From: Caldifarciminota bacterium SM23_42
GTDB lineage: Bacteria; Hydrothermota; Tepidihabitantia; SM23-42
Reading direction: 5' to 3'
DNA: 64,000 bases
Assembly (NCBI GenBank): GCA_001303785.1
Contig: LJUJ01000004.1
Span: 1 to 64,000, forward strand
Shown here: positions 8,848 to 51,465 of the stretch, piece after piece
Position numbering within the stretch: the stretch's first letter is position 1
Layout: each line of letters begins with the position of its first letter
Translations under genes and position numbers: made by a program
Notes under the pieces: generated by a model
Told to the model about the DNA's origin: nothing
What the model saw: only the letters and a program-made list of their open reading frames with translations
Database searches by the model: none

Positions 8848-9041
8848 TTTTTCTCGTAGACCTGTATGAATCTAGCGAACGACCTGTCGTAGGTTCGTTC
8901 CGTGTCATTTGGAAAACAGCATGCCGGTAGTTCTTGCATGGCCAGGTGATAACTCAAGCAATCACAGCATTTCCCTTTTCTTGAACATGGTTCATAACTG
9001 CAATTGCAATTCTTTTGATTGTCGCTTGTTTTGCATTCCAT
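8844..9041 (-). CDS. DUF6485 cysteine-rich small protein
   Basis: A 65-residue protein with eight cysteines, seven of them in the first half (MECKTSDNQKNCNCSYEPC, then KGKCCDCLSYH). The pattern matches my recollection of DUF6485, a family of small cytosolic proteins with no assigned function, probably metal-binding. ATG 9041 lies only five bases after the -10 box and no ribosome-binding site precedes it, so it is expected to be translated from a leaderless transcript. It heads the run gcvPB, small protein, GlmL-like gene, rpmF, plsX, fabH. Confidence 0.85.
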   Translation of the reverse strand: MECKTSDNQKNCNCSYEPCSRKGKCCDCLSYHLAMQELPACCFPNDTERTYDRSFARFIQVYEKK

Positions 9042-9046
9042 TTGGA

Positions 9047-9074
9047 ATTATACCAAAAAAGAACGCCATGTCAA
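9047..9074 (-). promoter_or_regulatory. Sigma-70 promoter of the DUF6485-gcvPB operon
   Basis: TTGACA (9074-9069) and TATAAT (9052-9047) with a 16-base spacer. The start codon follows after five bases, so the transcript start should coincide with the A of ATG 9041. Confidence 0.88.
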
Positions 9075-9111
9075 CTGGACAGAGTTGATTGATTTCGGTT
9101 TCGTAGAGTGG

Positions 9112-9139
9112 TTGACATAAGCCTGGACATCATTAGAAT
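9112..9139 (+). promoter_or_regulatory. Sigma-70 promoter of the DUF1622-transaldolase operon
   Basis: TTGACA (9112-9117) and TAGAAT (9134-9139) with a 16-base spacer, diverging from the DUF6485 promoter. The expected leader is about 90 bases. Confidence 0.75.
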
Positions 9140-9235
9140 AGACGTAGACATTACACTCGCGGGTTGTTAGAAATCGTGAACTATCTTTTTGCGTTTGAGT
9201 GAGTACAGAGTCATTAGCACAATTGGGAGGTTGAA

Positions 9236-9589
9236 GTGCAAATATTACATTATGTTTCGTTGATAATCGGGATAGCAGGTATCGTGATCATATGTTGGGG
9301 GGTGTTTCTCGGACTCTTGGATTTCATATGCATAGAATATGATCACATCCGAGGGACAAATATACGCAATCGCAGGTATCTGCTCAGGCATAATCTTGGT
9401 TCGTACTTACTCGTGGGTCTTGAATTTCTGATTGCGGCGGATGTCGTGAGAACGATAATAAAACCAACGCTCATGGAATTGGCAATACTGGGGTCGATTA
9501 TCGCAATCAGAACGGCCATTAGCTTTTTTCTGAACACGGAGATGAGACATCCACATTACCGTACCGAGGGCGAGTCTAAATCATCATGA
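9236..9589 (+). CDS. DUF1622 membrane protein
   Basis: A 117-residue inner-membrane protein with three hydrophobic segments: residues 5-30 (YVSLIIGIAGIVIICWGVFL), about 58-75 and about 80-100. The central GSYLLVGLEFLIAADVVRT segment is characteristic of the DUF1622 family, whose function is unknown. The start is GTG 9236, five bases after GGGAGG. It precedes transaldolase by 75 bases on the same strand, so co-transcription is likely. No functional link is apparent. Confidence 0.88.
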   Translation: MQILHYVSLIIGIAGIVIICWGVFLGLLDFICIEYDHIRGTNIRNRRYLLRHNLGSYLLVGLEFLIAADVVRTIIKPTLMELAILGSIIAIRTAISFFLNTEMRHPHYRTEGESKSS

Positions 9590-44785: not shown

Positions 44786-46363
44786 TCATCTTATCAATAA
44801 TAGCTTTTCTGTGATGTCGTAGTCCCCGATTCGGCCTTTCAGGAAATATACGCCACTTGGAACACTATTTCCTGCATCGTTCTGTCCCTGCCAATATAAT
44901 GTATGATTCCCTGGATTTTGCACACCACAAACGATTTCATTGATCCGTTTTCCAAGCGCATCGTATACTGTCATGATAATGTCTGAGCGTATTGGGAAGC
45001 TGAATTGAATTGTGAATTGAGTGCTTGCTGGGTTTGGCAATAACGAAAATTGAAGTTGGTCGGAGGGCGCGGTCACAGGTCGTTCTTGAACACCGGTGAA
45101 GCCTTGTAGGAAATGCCACCAGTATGGATAATCCTGCACAAAACACAGGCTTGCATAATCATAATTTAGATATGTGGTATCTGTAGGGTAGTAAATAGCT
45201 ATACCATGAGAGCTATCGACATTCATTCCATATGGCACGGTGTAATGACCTTCTGCTAGAACCGCATTGCTAAATGCAGCCAAGACAGAATCCGCTGATG
45301 CTCTTAAAGAAGTAGGCAGGTTGTCTGTGTTCTTGATTCTTTGGGCGAAATCGTAAAGATCAATATGTCTTTGGTTGCCGTACTGTTGTGAATAATACCT
45401 GGCTGCGGATATTTCAGTTTGATACAAACCGCCAGCGTCGATGAGGTCTTGAGCAAACAGATCAACTCTTTGAGTGAGGTCCTCGAATGGAGTTCCCAGA
45501 ATCAAAGCCGAGTGAGTAGCACTAATCGATGTTTGATATTGTGAGCCTCCGGGTTGATAAGATTCAACATATTTCTCTACAATAGTAGTGGCAAGCTGCT
45601 CGGGGGTCGCGTTGGGATTTTGATTCAACCAGCTAAAGATATCTTCATATGGATACCCATCTAAAGGTTCCCAGTGTTCAGAGAATACTATCACATCGAC
45701 AAAGTCGTTTACTTCGTATGCGACTTCTTGCATGGCCATTAAGCAAGCATCATGAGCTAGAATGTCGAGTGGTTCTCCAAGGCTATTATTTAGCGAATCG
45801 AGTATAAAGTAATACTCGCCATTAGCAACACCGATAGAATCGTGGTCTGTCCAGTCGTAGCCGATACCTCTAAATAGCGGATCAGGTGAACCTGCTCCGT
45901 CATACCAACCGTTGCCATGGTCACAAAGAATGAGAAGATAATGATCAGCAGGGAACAACGTTTTGCAGTACTCTACAAAATCTATCACAACATGGGGGTC
46001 ACCCATATTTAATTCACCAAGATCCCTTAAGAGTTCCGAGCGAATAATCCTATCGCCACTAGGGTCATAGGTTATGTAATAGTCTCTTGTTGTTGTCCAA
46101 TCCCCGTTCGAATTGTCATATCCAGGAATTCTGTCCATTTCAACAATAGCATTGTAGAATGTAGTATCCACTGCCGTCTCCATATTGTTTATATCGTCGA
46201 TTAAATCAGCTTCTAGGTTATTATCTCCGTTAAAGAAGGCGAGTATTGTCCATGGTTTTTGCCGGCACGGCTCTCTTTGCTTTGGCTCAAGGGTCATCTG
46301 TCGATGTGATAACGCCATACATGGTAAGATCAACGTCATAACTATCATTGTCACTTTTGTCAT
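44786..46363 (-). CDS. Clostripain-like C11 cysteine peptidase, secreted, with type IX sorting domain
   Basis: A 525-residue exported peptidase. A signal peptide is followed by the C11 core ILAFFNGDNNLEADLIDDIN. The catalytic His is in LILCDHGNGWYDG and the Cys in LAHDACLMAMQEV, the clostripain pair. The nearby VIVFSEHWEPLDGYPYEDI is typical of the family. The last 90 residues are a type IX sorting domain (LLPNPASTQFTIQFSF, VPSGVYFLKGRIGDYDITEKLLLIR). It follows the M14 gene by 27 bases with its own GGAGG site, so they form an operon. Specificity (usually Arg) is not deducible here. Confidence 0.92.
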   Translation of the reverse strand: MTKVTMIVMTLILPCMALSHRQMTLEPKQREPCRQKPWTILAFFNGDNNLEADLIDDINNMETAVDTTFYNAIVEMDRIPGYDNSNGDWTTTRDYYITYDPSGDRIIRSELLRDLGELNMGDPHVVIDFVEYCKTLFPADHYLLILCDHGNGWYDGAGSPDPLFRGIGYDWTDHDSIGVANGEYYFILDSLNNSLGEPLDILAHDACLMAMQEVAYEVNDFVDVIVFSEHWEPLDGYPYEDIFSWLNQNPNATPEQLATTIVEKYVESYQPGGSQYQTSISATHSALILGTPFEDLTQRVDLFAQDLIDAGGLYQTEISAARYYSQQYGNQRHIDLYDFAQRIKNTDNLPTSLRASADSVLAAFSNAVLAEGHYTVPYGMNVDSSHGIAIYYPTDTTYLNYDYASLCFVQDYPYWWHFLQGFTGVQERPVTAPSDQLQFSLLPNPASTQFTIQFSFPIRSDIIMTVYDALGKRINEIVCGVQNPGNHTLYWQGQNDAGNSVPSGVYFLKGRIGDYDITEKLLLIR

Positions 46364-46390: not shown

Positions 46391-48538
46391 CTATCTTATT
46401 AACAACAACTTCTTAGTTTCGCTAGACTCGCCCGTCTGGAACATTAAGATATAGACACCGCTGGGAAGGAGACGGCTAGCATGGTCTGTGCCGTCCCAGC
46501 TGATGCGGCCTGATAGTCTCATAGTCGGATAGTCCCATTGTCTAACTAAACGACCTGTCGCATCGTAGATTGTCAGTTCTGGTTTCGGATTTTCTTGTAT
46601 CATGCATCCTGGATCATGTATCGTGTATCGTATATTAGTGGAATGTCGGAATGGATTTGGATACGCTGTGAGCACGTGTAGAGGTTCGAATGCGGGGCGT
46701 CTTGTGGTTTCTTCGATCCCGGTTGCGTGGAAGAATTTAATTGCATCAAGGTCAAAACCTGAATATTGCCCACTTGCAACGTCACCATCATCTACGACTT
46801 TTAAATAACGCGCTTGATTCAATCCGGCTGTGGAGAGATCAAATGCTGCCGTTCCCGTGTCAATTCCACACGAATACCACGGCCCGTCCCAATTGTTTGA
46901 TGCAAAGACTTCGTATCCCTCAGGAATGCCATCGTCACCTTCATATACCATGAAATCATCACCAGGTCCATCTGCGATGATCGAGTTGGGCCCCATATCG
47001 AGTATCACATAACCAGTGCGGTAACCATATTTCCCAAGAGAAAAGAACAGACTGTCTTCAGCCCCGAGCGCGAGCCTCGGTCTCGTCTTGTTACTGTATT
47101 CTGCATGACCGGCATAGCGACAGGCAACAGCCCTGAATGCATAAAGGTAACTTGAATCTGGCGTGAGTAAAACATCACTTATTGATACACTGCCCATCGC
47201 TGGTACAGTCACATTCTCCACTGCCTTTGGAGCATAACCGTTTGCCGAAAATCTCAAGTCATACGTTCCTTGTTCAATCATCTTGTGAAAGTCGCCAAGA
47301 TTTGGGTCAGTGTAGACATCGATTCTGTCCGGGTTCATGAATTCGACCCTGGCATATAGCGGAGTGTTTGTGATAGAATCTCTGACAATACCTTTAATGC
47401 CCCAGCCGGCTCGGTCACACACTTCCATTAAAGCGTCCCGATGTTCGTAGCAAATCGAATCAATACCTAGAGAATCTACGTAACGAGGGTTCTCGGTTGC
47501 ATAACTAAAGGCACCACTTATACCAATGGGATAGTCTCCCGATGAGCCACAAATTTGATACCAGTCATAGCCATTACCATAATAATAATTCGCAGCATTA
47601 GCATAGACCTGAGTCATGGCAATAATGTGCTGACTATCCGGCGGGTCGGCCTGATGGTAGTCCCATGAATAGTAAATCCAACTTTCCGTCCCAAGATAAG
47701 AGTGGTAATCGAATTCCAATGACATATTATTTTCTTCGTGATGCTGCACAAGTGCTTTGGTTTCAATCTGTGAGCAGGGACCAGGACTGCTGCCCCAGCC
47801 ATCCCAGAAATAGCCATAATCGCGGTTTAGATCAACCGAATTTAGGTTTGTTCTCATATTGAGAACCTTTCCGTCGGGATTCAATGTCGGCAGTATCCAG
47901 AATTCGATATTGTTCACTAAATCTTGTACCTGTGGAACAGTTGCATAGTTCGTTAGTAGATGTCTGATAAAATATAGTGTGATTTCAGTCCCTATGTGTT
48001 CGTCACCATGTATATTTCCTTTTAACCTGACTTCAGGTTCATTTTCTTCAATTTGAGGGTCGTCTGTTACCCTCATTGCCCAAATCGCCCGCCCCTGGAG
48101 ACTGAAACCAATCGTATCGAGTCTACAGATTTCTGGATAGTTTGTGACAAATGAATCGAGGACCAGATAGGTTTGATCATATGTGTGATAGAATCCTCTT
48201 TGGAATAGCTCATCCATATGTGACTGGTAATCTTTCACGAGAATTTCAACATGATAGCCTGCAGCTCTTAACTCGGCGATTTCAGCATCGTTGGCGAGAA
48301 CTTGCGCAAAATTCTTTCCAGCGTGGACAATGGTAACAAAGAATTTGTTCAGTTTGTACACCTCGCTATGGGCGAGCAGGTGAACCTTGGCTAGCCTTAT
48401 TGTCTGATCTTGTGTTATAATTCCCGTTTGAATCTGATTCAGCGCATGGCTTTGTTGTCCAGGTGAAGCAACTGCATATGCTATTCCGGAAACGAGCAGC
48501 AGTACAACTTTTGCCATTGATATACTATCTTTCTTCAT
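46391..48538 (-). CDS. M14 zinc carboxypeptidase, secreted, with type IX sorting domain
   Basis: A 715-residue exported metallopeptidase. I place the start at ATG 48538, after AAAGGGGA; an ATG 21 bases upstream has no such site. After a signal peptide and propeptide, the catalytic domain has the zinc ligands HGDEHIGTE (His-x-x-Glu), then TLNPDGKVL and DLNRDYGYFW. A carboxypeptidase regulatory-like domain follows (GIKGIVRDSITNTPLYARVEF), then a beta-sandwich module (VILDMGPNSIIADGPGDDF) and a C-terminal sorting domain (TAYPNPFRHSTNIRY). Expression is probably controlled by the adjacent response regulator, because an operator-like element shared with that gene lies upstream. Confidence 0.93.
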   Translation of the reverse strand: MKKDSISMAKVVLLLVSGIAYAVASPGQQSHALNQIQTGIITQDQTIRLAKVHLLAHSEVYKLNKFFVTIVHAGKNFAQVLANDAEIAELRAAGYHVEILVKDYQSHMDELFQRGFYHTYDQTYLVLDSFVTNYPEICRLDTIGFSLQGRAIWAMRVTDDPQIEENEPEVRLKGNIHGDEHIGTEITLYFIRHLLTNYATVPQVQDLVNNIEFWILPTLNPDGKVLNMRTNLNSVDLNRDYGYFWDGWGSSPGPCSQIETKALVQHHEENNMSLEFDYHSYLGTESWIYYSWDYHQADPPDSQHIIAMTQVYANAANYYYGNGYDWYQICGSSGDYPIGISGAFSYATENPRYVDSLGIDSICYEHRDALMEVCDRAGWGIKGIVRDSITNTPLYARVEFMNPDRIDVYTDPNLGDFHKMIEQGTYDLRFSANGYAPKAVENVTVPAMGSVSISDVLLTPDSSYLYAFRAVACRYAGHAEYSNKTRPRLALGAEDSLFFSLGKYGYRTGYVILDMGPNSIIADGPGDDFMVYEGDDGIPEGYEVFASNNWDGPWYSCGIDTGTAAFDLSTAGLNQARYLKVVDDGDVASGQYSGFDLDAIKFFHATGIEETTRRPAFEPLHVLTAYPNPFRHSTNIRYTIHDPGCMIQENPKPELTIYDATGRLVRQWDYPTMRLSGRISWDGTDHASRLLPSGVYILMFQTGESSETKKLLLIR
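46500..46629. repeat. 130-bp near-identical block in a sorting domain, copy 2
   Basis: Matches 42178-42307 with four substitutions, in the same orientation and the same frame of the M14 gene's sorting domain. The third sorting domain in the area, at the end of the C11 gene, lacks this block. Confidence 0.85.
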
Positions 48539-48585
48539 CTTTTCCCCTTTCCAAGCCAATTTTGGCTTAGTTCTGGTTACACTAA

Positions 48586-48645
48586 ATTATAGGTTGAGTC
48601 ACGTGAAACCACAATTAGTCAATTCCTAAAATTGTGGTGTTAAAA
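48586..48645 (-). promoter_or_regulatory. Promoter and 39-bp operator-like element of the M14-C11 operon
   Basis: A 39-bp element (48607-48645) contains the dyad CCACAATT-N13-AATTGTGG. On the minus strand it ends 15 bases before TATAAT (48591-48586). No consensus -35 is present at the right distance; TGTGGT occupies that place, as expected for an activator-dependent promoter. The transcript leader (about 40 bases) can fold a 7-bp hairpin at 48553-48568 just before the ribosome site. Confidence 0.75.
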
Positions 48646-48712
48646 TGCTATGTTGGTTGTAACCTGTGGAGTAAGTGAATTATAAGGAGGAAACGTAGTC
48701 TGCGGGATTTCA

Positions 48713-49366
48713 CTACCCCTCCAGAGACGTCAGCCCCTCGCTAATGGCATATTTTGTTAGCTCTGCAACGCTGCGAATGTGTAGTTTCTTCATGATTCGC
48801 CTACGATGAGCCTCAATAGTCTTTGAACTTAGATGCATTTTCAAGGCCATTTGCTTGGTGTTTCTACCCTCAGCTATGAGCTGAAGGACTTCGCGTTCAC
48901 GGGGCGTCAGGATAGACTGAACAGATGAAGCTGCTGGTGGCTGTTGAGCAATACTTTCGTCAACGACAATGTGAGCTATCTGCGGACTGATGTATACTTG
49001 ATTCAGTGCAACAATATGGATGGCATTGCTTAATTCCTTGTAGGCACAGTTCTTCAAGAGATAGCCAGAGACGCCGGCACGAAACATGTCCAGAACATAT
49101 CGTCGGTCTGAATGCATGGACAAGCAGAGCACTTTTGTATCAGGAATCCTCTTCTTGATTTGGCGTGTTGCCTCCATGCCATTCAAATCAGGCATTGTTA
49201 TGTCCATTACGATTACATCCGGCTTTAGTTCACGGGCAAGTCTGACAGTATCTCTACCATTTTCTGCACCGCCTACTACTTCAATATCAGGTTCTCGAGC
49301 AAGCAGGCTGCGCATGCCTTCACGAAAGATCAAATGATCATCAGCCAAGAGAATTCTTATGCTCAT
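48713..49366 (-). CDS. NarL/FixJ-family response regulator
   Basis: A 217-residue two-component regulator. The receiver domain has the acidic pocket (ILLADDH), the phospho-Asp in KPDVIVMDITMPDLNG (about residue 55) and the late Lys in LLKNCAY. The C-terminal LuxR-type helix-turn-helix is LTPREREVLQLIAEGRNTKQ then LHLSSKTIEAHRRRI. ATG 49366 follows GAAGGAG. It lies after the kinase gene and before the secreted peptidases, on the same strand. Its promoter carries the same 39-bp element as the peptidase operon, so autoregulation and control of the peptidases are likely. Confidence 0.94.
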   Translation of the reverse strand: MSIRILLADDHLIFREGMRSLLAREPDIEVVGGAENGRDTVRLARELKPDVIVMDITMPDLNGMEATRQIKKRIPDTKVLCLSMHSDRRYVLDMFRAGVSGYLLKNCAYKELSNAIHIVALNQVYISPQIAHIVVDESIAQQPPAASSVQSILTPREREVLQLIAEGRNTKQMALKMHLSSKTIEAHRRRIMKKLHIRSVAELTKYAISEGLTSLEG

Positions 49367-49408
49367 TTCTCCTTCAACCCTATTTCGATTTGTTTTTGCC
49401 TATATATA

Positions 49409-49468
49409 ATTATAAAGCGAACCATACTTAACCACAATTAGTCAATTCCTTAATTTGAGGTGTTAAAA
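49409..49468 (-). promoter_or_regulatory. Promoter and 39-bp operator-like element of the response regulator gene
   Basis: The element at 49430-49468 matches 48607-48645 at 36 of 39 positions. It ends 15 bases before TATAAT (49414-49409), exactly as at the M14 promoter. One arm of the dyad is degenerate here (CCTCAAAT). The leader is about 35 bases. Confidence 0.75.
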
Positions 49469-49528
49469 GCCCTATCGTCTTAGTTCCAGGAACACTTGTT
49501 GTGGTGCCGATATCAATTAACCAGCGTC

Positions 49529-51465
49529 TCATACTCGTCTTCTCTTTCTATTTGCGTCTTGCCGGGATGATGTCAACGGTGCCATAATGATAACCGAGGT
49601 TCCTTTCCCTACCTTGGATGAAACCTCAAGCTTGCCATGCAGATGCCGTAGCCGTTCTTTGAGATTGAATAGACCAAAACCCTCATTTTTTGTGATCTTC
49701 TGATTGAGGATCTTTGTATTGAAGCCAACACCATCATCCGTCACTTCGACACGTATTGTCTTACCCTTTTTCTCTGTCAATACTCTGACAGTCCGCGCCT
49801 GCGCATGCTTGGCGACATTTGTCAGTAACTCACGAACAGATTGAAAAAGGATGACCTTTGTGTCGCGACTAACAGGTTTGGGCAAGCCGTCATTTTTGAG
49901 TTCGCAAACAATGTCGTGTTTGTTTTGAAATTGCTCGGCATGATTTCTTTGATTGCCTCTAACTCCTTCTTGATATTCTTCTTAGAAATCATATCCCGTA
50001 GCAGTTCCAATCTAACTGTAGCAAGTGCCAGTGCCTGCGCTATGTCATCATGCAAGTAAGTTGCGATCTTACGACGCTGTTTTTCCTCAACTAAAGATAG
50101 CTCATGAGCTAGGGACCTTAGCTGTTTTGTGCGTTCCTCCACCAATGTTTCAAGATACTCACGGTGTTGCTTCAGCTCTTTTTCCGCCTTCTTTCGTTCC
50201 TTGATTTCTTTACGTAACTTGACGTTCTTCAGGTGATATACTTCAGCCTCTCTTTCTTTCTTCTCAGTTTCATACTTGGCATGCATTTCAGCAATTTGCT
50301 TGCTTTTTTCAGTGTTGAAGATTTGTTTGTCGACCTCGGCGTATTTCTTGTAATAACGTAGGGCTTTATTATGATCCTGTTGTGCTTCATACAATTCAGA
50401 AAGAGATTTGTAACCATCTATTTGGTCTTCTTTTATACCGATTTCTGCAGCGATACGCAGACCTTTTCGGAGATAGCGAAGGGCTGAATCATACTTCTTC
50501 AGCTTCGAGTTAGCGAATCCAGCACGGATGTAGGAACGTGCAGTGCCTGCCTTATCTCCGATTTCGTTTTGGATTTTCAGGGCTCTGAGGTGATGTTTCG
50601 ATGCCCGTTTATACTCGTTTTGCTTTGCATGAATGGCACCAATATTGTTGAGAGAGGCGGCAATGCCTTCTTTATCGTCGATCTCTTCTCTGATCTTCAA
50701 ACCTTTGAGAAGAAACTTCAATGCCTTATCATTCGAACCAAGCTTATCATACGCAAGCCCAATATTGTTGTACGAGGGTGCTATATGCACCTTGCTGCCG
50801 ATTTCTTCAAAGATTCTTAAAGATTTGAAATAGTATTGCAACGCTTGTTCGTAATCGCCTTGCAGGTCAAAGATAATTCCCAAATTCGCATAACATTCAG
50901 TGATGCCCATTCTATTTTCGATTTCCTCGAATATGTTTAAGGCCTTTAGAGTATGCTCCAATGCATGGTCATAATCGCCGCGCTTACCATATATCATACC
51001 AATATTGCGGGAGGTAATCGCAGCGGCTTTTTTATCACCAGTTTCTTCTTTGATTCTTAAAGCCCTCAAATAGTAATCCAACGCCTCTTCATAATTGCCC
51101 AGCCTGCCAGAAATGATTCCGAGGCTGTTGTAAGAAGCCGCGACGCCGTCTTTATCTCTAATTTCTCTGCTTATTTTCAGAGATTCGAGAAGGTTCCTCG
51201 TTGCCTTATCATACTCGCATTTTCTGAGATATACAAAACCAATGATTCGATTACAGGTGGCCTTACCTTTTCTGTACTTCAATTTCTCGGCTAAGGTAAG
51301 GGCTTCGCATACGTAGTCTTCTGTCTTTTGAAGATCAGAATTACAGAGTTCGAAAGCCAATTCATTTAACGTGTTCACCTTTTCTTTACCAGATATGCCC
51401 GTGTTAGACTTGGAACGAAGAGCTTTCAGCCGTTTCTCGAGACGCTGTATTTTGCTCTCGGGCAT
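49529..51465 (-). pseudogene. Soluble TPR-containing histidine kinase, frame broken by a deletion
   Basis: Two overlapping frames (51465-49822 and 49885-49529) encode one kinase. Residues about 30-385 are tandem TPR repeats (SYNSLGIISGRLGNYEEALD and relatives), followed by a coiled coil. A HisKA_3 dimerisation domain has the phospho-acceptor His472 in KIATYLHDDIAQALA. The second frame supplies the HATPase domain (SVRELLTNVAKHAQ, VTDDGVGFN, GFGLFNLKERL). No membrane segment is visible, so it senses a cytoplasmic or protein signal. Between EAIKE and EQFQNKHD about 34 residues normally present in the family are absent, and the frame shifts there. Either the kinase is disabled or the sequence is in error. 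The start is ATG 51465 after AGGAGGG. Confidence 0.85.

Follow-up and report, generated by a model that had tools for sequence, protein, structure and literature searches.

Two copies of a promoter element stand on either side of a response regulator gene in a 64,000-nucleotide stretch of DNA (the window) from the genome of an uncultured bacterium of the group named candidate division WOR-3. From the sequence evidence we consider it quite probable that this element serves a local two-component system as operator-promoter; the system's NarL/FixJ-type regulator would activate both its own promoter and the adjacent operon of secreted proteins.

Genes of the two-component locus

The genes concerned lie on the minus strand in the order TPR kinase (in two frames, 49529-51465), element E2, response regulator, element E1, M14 carboxypeptidase, C11 peptidase and more genes. 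The regulator gene (48713..49366, minus strand) encodes 217 amino acids with Response_reg and GerE HTH domains, whose Pfam scores of 96 and 66 bits mark the protein as a NarL/FixJ-type response regulator; residues D9, D10, D55 and K105 are intact and are invariant across six regulator orthologues and paralogues. The gene for a secreted M14 zinc carboxypeptidase (46391..48538, minus strand) likely starts at the ATG at 48538, after an GGAAAGGGG ribosome site, and is followed 27 bp on, on the same strand, by the gene for a secreted C11 (clostripain-family) peptidase (44786..46363). Both proteins carry a type IX secretion (T9SS) sorting domain, which is C-terminal in the carboxypeptidase.

The sensor kinase gene is split in the window. 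Its N-terminal part (49822..51465, minus strand) is rich in TPR repeats and includes HisKA_3, and its C-terminal part (49529..49885, minus strand) holds HATPase_c in another frame; between these domains (49822-49965, minus strand), after the dimerisation helices and before the ATPase N-box, about 31 codons are lost and the frame changes. Intact kinases adjoin the regulator in the relatives compared (G006 and G003), as also at a paralogous locus that this genome carries on contig C10. The lesion may be an assembly error; if it is not, the window kinase is broken, the regulator needs another phosphodonor, and it would by now rely on a different kinase, for which the C10 paralogue would be the obvious candidate.

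Anatomy of elements E1 and E2

The sequence-only reading of the window had noticed two matching 39-base elements, at 48607-48645 and 49430-49468, and had placed them correctly. They stand 823 bp apart, are identical at 36 of 39 bases (minus-strand readings TTTTAACACCACAATTTTAGGAATTGACTAATTGTGGTT and TTTTAACACCTCAAATTAAGGAATTGACTAATTGTGGTT) and each ends, as claimed, 15 bases short of a TATAAT (48591-48586 and 49414-49409, minus strand); ungapped pairs as good as this one are expected by chance about 4e-9 times in the window. The same reading saw no good -35 box in either promoter, and here it was mistaken, since both TATAAT boxes are preceded by TTGTGG at a distance of exactly 17 bp. E1 (48581..48652, minus strand), the predicted promoter of the M14 peptidase gene, is made up of a degenerate distal site (48631-48652), a proximal dyad TTAG-N7-CTAA (48615-48629), the -35-like TTGTGG (48609-48614), an N17 spacer and TATAAT (48586-48591), all on the minus strand. 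E2 (49404..49475, minus strand; TATAAT at 49409-49414) has the same anatomy, is placed between kinase and regulator and is the predicted promoter of the regulator gene. The window has no TTGNNN-N17-TATAAT arrangements other than these two, and E1 and E2 are the only places in the 2.53-Mb assembly where the core GGAATTGACTAATTGTGGTT is found with up to three mismatches.

The dyad that had been proposed as the site of a regulator dimer, CCACAATT-N13-AATTGTGG, is indeed present, with no mismatches in the first copy and two in the second, but it is not the conserved unit. We rejected this 29-bp dyad as an operator, as across the genome it hardly exceeds its control (allowing up to three mismatches, 14 places per strand versus 9 for the reversed pattern), and it is not supported as a binding unit because its left arm is conserved in no relative, nor in the second copy.

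The conserved element is a tandem pair of NarL-type sites at a spacing of 22 bp, CTNAGG-N4-TCGAA first and NTMAG-N7-CYRAT second, and the promoter-proximal one runs into the -35-like hexamer. In alignment the invariant part reads AAGGAATT-NN-CC-RATTG, then YGG, 17 bases and TATAAT (the spacer is 16 bases at the downstream copy on C10), and TTGTGG thus occupies the -35 position with ideal spacing. The upstream second site, 22 bases away, is CTAAGGATATCCGAAG in relatives, degenerate in E1 and partly kept in E2. The two sites are two helical turns apart, with centres at about -65 and about -43 from the predicted start (7 bases past the -10; about 48579 and 49402 in the window). A conserved dyad near -42, at a fixed distance from a sigma-70 -10, precedes both the regulator gene and the target gene. 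The sites differ between paralogues, and in most of them the symmetry is imperfect.

Conservation, proposed mechanism and alternatives

Regulator orthologues at 71-81% identity occur in four of the seven other genus genomes, and a related promoter lies downstream of every close orthologue and of the 67% identical paralogue on contig C10. Among 61 genomes of the class, strict matches (core, N17 and TATAAT) were found in five, all of the same genus and all carrying a regulator orthologue that is 71% identical or more; these matches always adjoin the regulator gene, with one per genome in the four relatives at 60-90 bp past the regulator stop, and control patterns gave about none. The strict pattern found no site in G001, G004 and G005, the three genus members without a regulator orthologue, and a simple pattern did not find the element at the approximately 40% identical regulator homologues elsewhere in the class. 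The close orthologues in G002, G003, G006 and G007 have the downstream element only, so autoregulation is not conserved across the genus.

Profiles built from seven WOR-3 sites (R2, sequence only) and from 22 sites (R1) were both searched against the 61 genomes. They recovered a held-out site present in neither training set (contig C10 of the host genome, 4569-4637; E = 1.9e-5 with R2 and 8e-6 with R1), which lies between kinase and regulator of the paralogous system and reads TAAGGCATTTAGTATTCCAGAATCAGGAATAACCCGATTAC before TATAAT. The sites detectable in the host genome therefore number four, and they flank two paralogous regulator genes, each of which has one site on either side; no dispersed regulon was found beyond these four at E < 0.1 with the two profile models, whose scans scored 81 candidates per genome and may therefore miss weak sites. 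The C10 unit (L047, 331-6864) has an intact TPR kinase, a 67% identical regulator with elements before and after it and, at its end, two secreted proteins bearing T9SS-like tails, and the layout of the window system is thus repeated at a second system in the same genome. Occurrence at random places or inside genes, or a lack of conservation between related genomes, would have counted against the sequence-only reading. The genome-wide search found sites only beside the two regulator genes, with secreted genes following, and the core and its spacing are kept in four other genomes, as the left arm of the dyad is not; the proposal of a shared regulatory element survived these comparisons.

By the mechanism that we propose, the phosphorylated regulator would bind as dimers at the two sites 22 bp apart, and the proximal dimer would touch the poor -35 (TTGTGG) and recruit housekeeping RNA polymerase (class II activation). 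The copy before the regulator gene would give positive autoregulation, and the copy after it would turn on the adjacent operon, here that of the M14 and C11 secreted peptidases.

The regulator might instead act as a repressor whose proximal site blocks polymerase, with negative autoregulation and with the peptidases off until a signal comes. Such an arrangement would suit a proximal site that abuts and partly overlaps the -35 hexamer, and a TATAAT that is perfect. However, the -35 is poor, the distance from site to core is fixed in WOR-3 and nearly so in other phyla, as for polymerase contact, and activators of the NarL/FixJ family commonly have a second site 22 bp upstream. We infer activation over repression from these features and regard a repressor as unlikely. 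That the 39 shared bases are a recent duplication or small repeat without a regulatory role would fit the existence of just two near-identical copies so close together, and because E1 and E2 have common bases that are absent from every relative, TTTTAACACC among them, part of their 36/39 identity probably does reflect recent local duplication or gene conversion. As a full account, however, duplication is most improbable and is largely refuted by the conserved core, which keeps its TATAAT spacing in the four other genomes and at the paralogous locus, where the regulator is just 67% identical, although the genes downstream are unrelated at these places, and which recurs beside homologous regulators across phyla. 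It is also very unlikely that the element is the lineage's ordinary promoter, or that of an alternative sigma factor, and is unrelated to the regulator. The TTGTGG-N17-TATAAT arrangement is what such a promoter might have, but only four such elements were found genome-wide, all adjoining the two regulator genes, those of E1 and E2 have no counterpart in 64 kb, and the genus members that lack the regulator also lack the element.

The sequence-only reading had pictured an autoregulated two-component system that switches on peptidases with type IX sorting tags. Its tags are borne out by Pfam, as Por_Secre_tail is over cut-off on both the M14 and the C11 protein in the genome scan, and the common promoter element, its conservation and its co-occurrence with the regulator hold as well, but the specific T9SS link is weak. 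SprA_N is over cut-off in all eight genus genomes, and a type IX translocon is therefore likely; with sorting domains on the proteins and a translocon in the genome, the two peptidases would qualify as T9SS cargo. A tie between the element and such cargo in particular is weak because the host genome has 96 Por_Secre_tail matches and only two loci with the element, and because different genes lie downstream in other phyla.

Other phyla and related systems

Regulator homologues from other phyla (38-59% identity) were scanned with a matrix made from WOR-3 sites only, and in 11 of 46 loci the top match adjoins the regulator on the same strand, where 0.96 were expected (P ~2e-9). The strongest matches are from Candidatus Zipacnadia, Deltaproteobacteria, Ignavibacteriae and one unclassified bacterium, weaker ones are from Victivallales and Candidatus Roseilinea, and the lowest-scoring of the eleven may be chance. 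Their consensus is CTCAGG-N4-TCGAA-N7-TCAGRGAATNCCCGATTG; the 22-bp spacing is kept, and a TANNNT -10 follows about 20 bases on, at a roughly fixed distance across phyla. Whole-genome searches of eight cross-phylum genomes gave one to three sites in seven, mostly beside the regulator. Candidatus Zipacnadia (L061) has the kinase-element-regulator-element layout of the host genome. As read from translations, the gene under the element encodes a T9SS-tagged protein in Ignavibacteriae, an ammonium transporter at L070, and further receivers or kinases in Deltaproteobacteria and Acidiferrobacterales.

A broader reading, which we put forward tentatively and rate a little short of probable, is that of a portable module: NarL-type regulators of one subfamily, spread over many phyla, would each retain a matching tandem 22-bp operator-promoter just past their own gene, and sometimes ahead of it, and the module would act mainly in cis and not through a dispersed regulon. 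The controlled gene would be freely exchanged, the genes so exchanged being those for secreted peptidases, other secreted proteins, an ammonium transporter and signalling proteins, and possibly a structured RNA. Since related elements adjoin related regulators in several other phyla, a concrete DNA target can now be proposed for this apparently uncharacterised and widespread NarL-type group, which includes members from uncultured phyla, and the gene controlled by each system could be predicted from position alone. For WOR-3 the system offers a first candidate for the control of T9SS-tagged secreted peptidases; in a recent survey of 181 WOR-3 genomes, neither two-component regulation nor peptidases nor secretion systems are mentioned.

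The system is of an ordinary kind. Its family of sites, and the way in which these stay with the regulator gene across phyla, seem undescribed in the literature searched. Searches of that literature turned up no NarL-type regulator with a published ATCAGG/CCTGAT site matching the present one. Regulation of T9SS in the same literature is mainly that by the PorXY-SigP cascade of Bacteroidota. PorX is not known to be a NarL-type DNA binder. The PorX-PorY-SigP system of Porphyromonas is alike in being a two-component system tied to T9SS proteins, but its kinase and regulator are unlinked and it works via an ECF sigma factor on secretion-machine genes, whereas here local cargo genes would be the target (PMC4800418). 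DVU0679 of Desulfovibrio vulgaris is a response regulator that resembles the present one in the position of its target, which directly follows the DVU0679 gene and may also be kept past the orthologues, but that target is a small RNA (PMC3333781). The LuxR-family regulator CrbR depends on an imperfect inverted repeat that spans -52 to -36, directly ahead of the promoter (PMC5715377), which sets an experimental precedent for where a LuxR-type site can lie. The CrbS/CrbR ACTU motif of Pseudomonas shares with the present element a LuxR/NarL-type regulator and an imperfect inverted repeat of about 17 bp that abuts the promoter core and is required for activation; it differs in its site sequence (TACTACCATCGTCGAAT is an example), in its regulon, which is dispersed and made up of acetate genes, and in its kinase, which is an SLC5-STAC hybrid and not a TPR kinase as here, and in the parts of the paper drawn on here a 22-bp tandem pair is not described for CrbR (PMC5715377).

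Several other conserved features were seen near these regulators. In three relatives (G007, G002 and G003), a leader that is rich in GC, poor in ORFs and folded into three hairpins (GAGGGGAGCCACGCG...; GCTGGAGGGCGGCCAGC) by prediction lies right past the -10 of the element (L049 11488-11650, plus strand; L051 9330-9491, minus strand; L050 812-973, minus strand), and exact GAGGGGAGCCACGCG is found in these genomes only at the leader. Double changes affect 6 of its 37 predicted pairs, the covariation term is slightly unfavourable, and Rfam gave no match in the related loci. Transcription of a CsrA-titrating RNA from the element in relatives (GacA/UvrY-type control) was considered and rejected, because CsrA (PF02599) is absent from all eight genus genomes, where positive controls were found; the leader remains a candidate structured RNA, putatively under regulator control. 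Downstream of the element at L051 (about 9000-9250, minus strand) there is a T9SS tail remnant (KLPGGVYFITLRAGNYSEARKVLFVR) without a long ORF, which suggests that in G002 the secreted gene under the element has decayed.

At three Ktedonobacteria loci (L085, L088 and L101), a near-perfect palindrome, ATCAGG-N6-CCTGAT, lies 1.3-2.9 kb ahead of regulator homologues; another ATCAGG half is found upstream at a spacing of 22 bp, and the distance to a -10 is likewise the same. The approximately 40% identical regulators at L023, L024 and L026-L028, which come from another family of the class, are followed within about 160 bp by a different conserved block (for example CTAAGGTTTTTTGCTTAG, then TTGACC-N17-AAAATA), which may be a like arrangement built on another site. 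Finally, a conserved block CCTACCCAYANANAAATACGTA lies upstream of approximately 39% identical regulators of that same family at L038, L040 and L045, and looks like a separate NarL-type operator.
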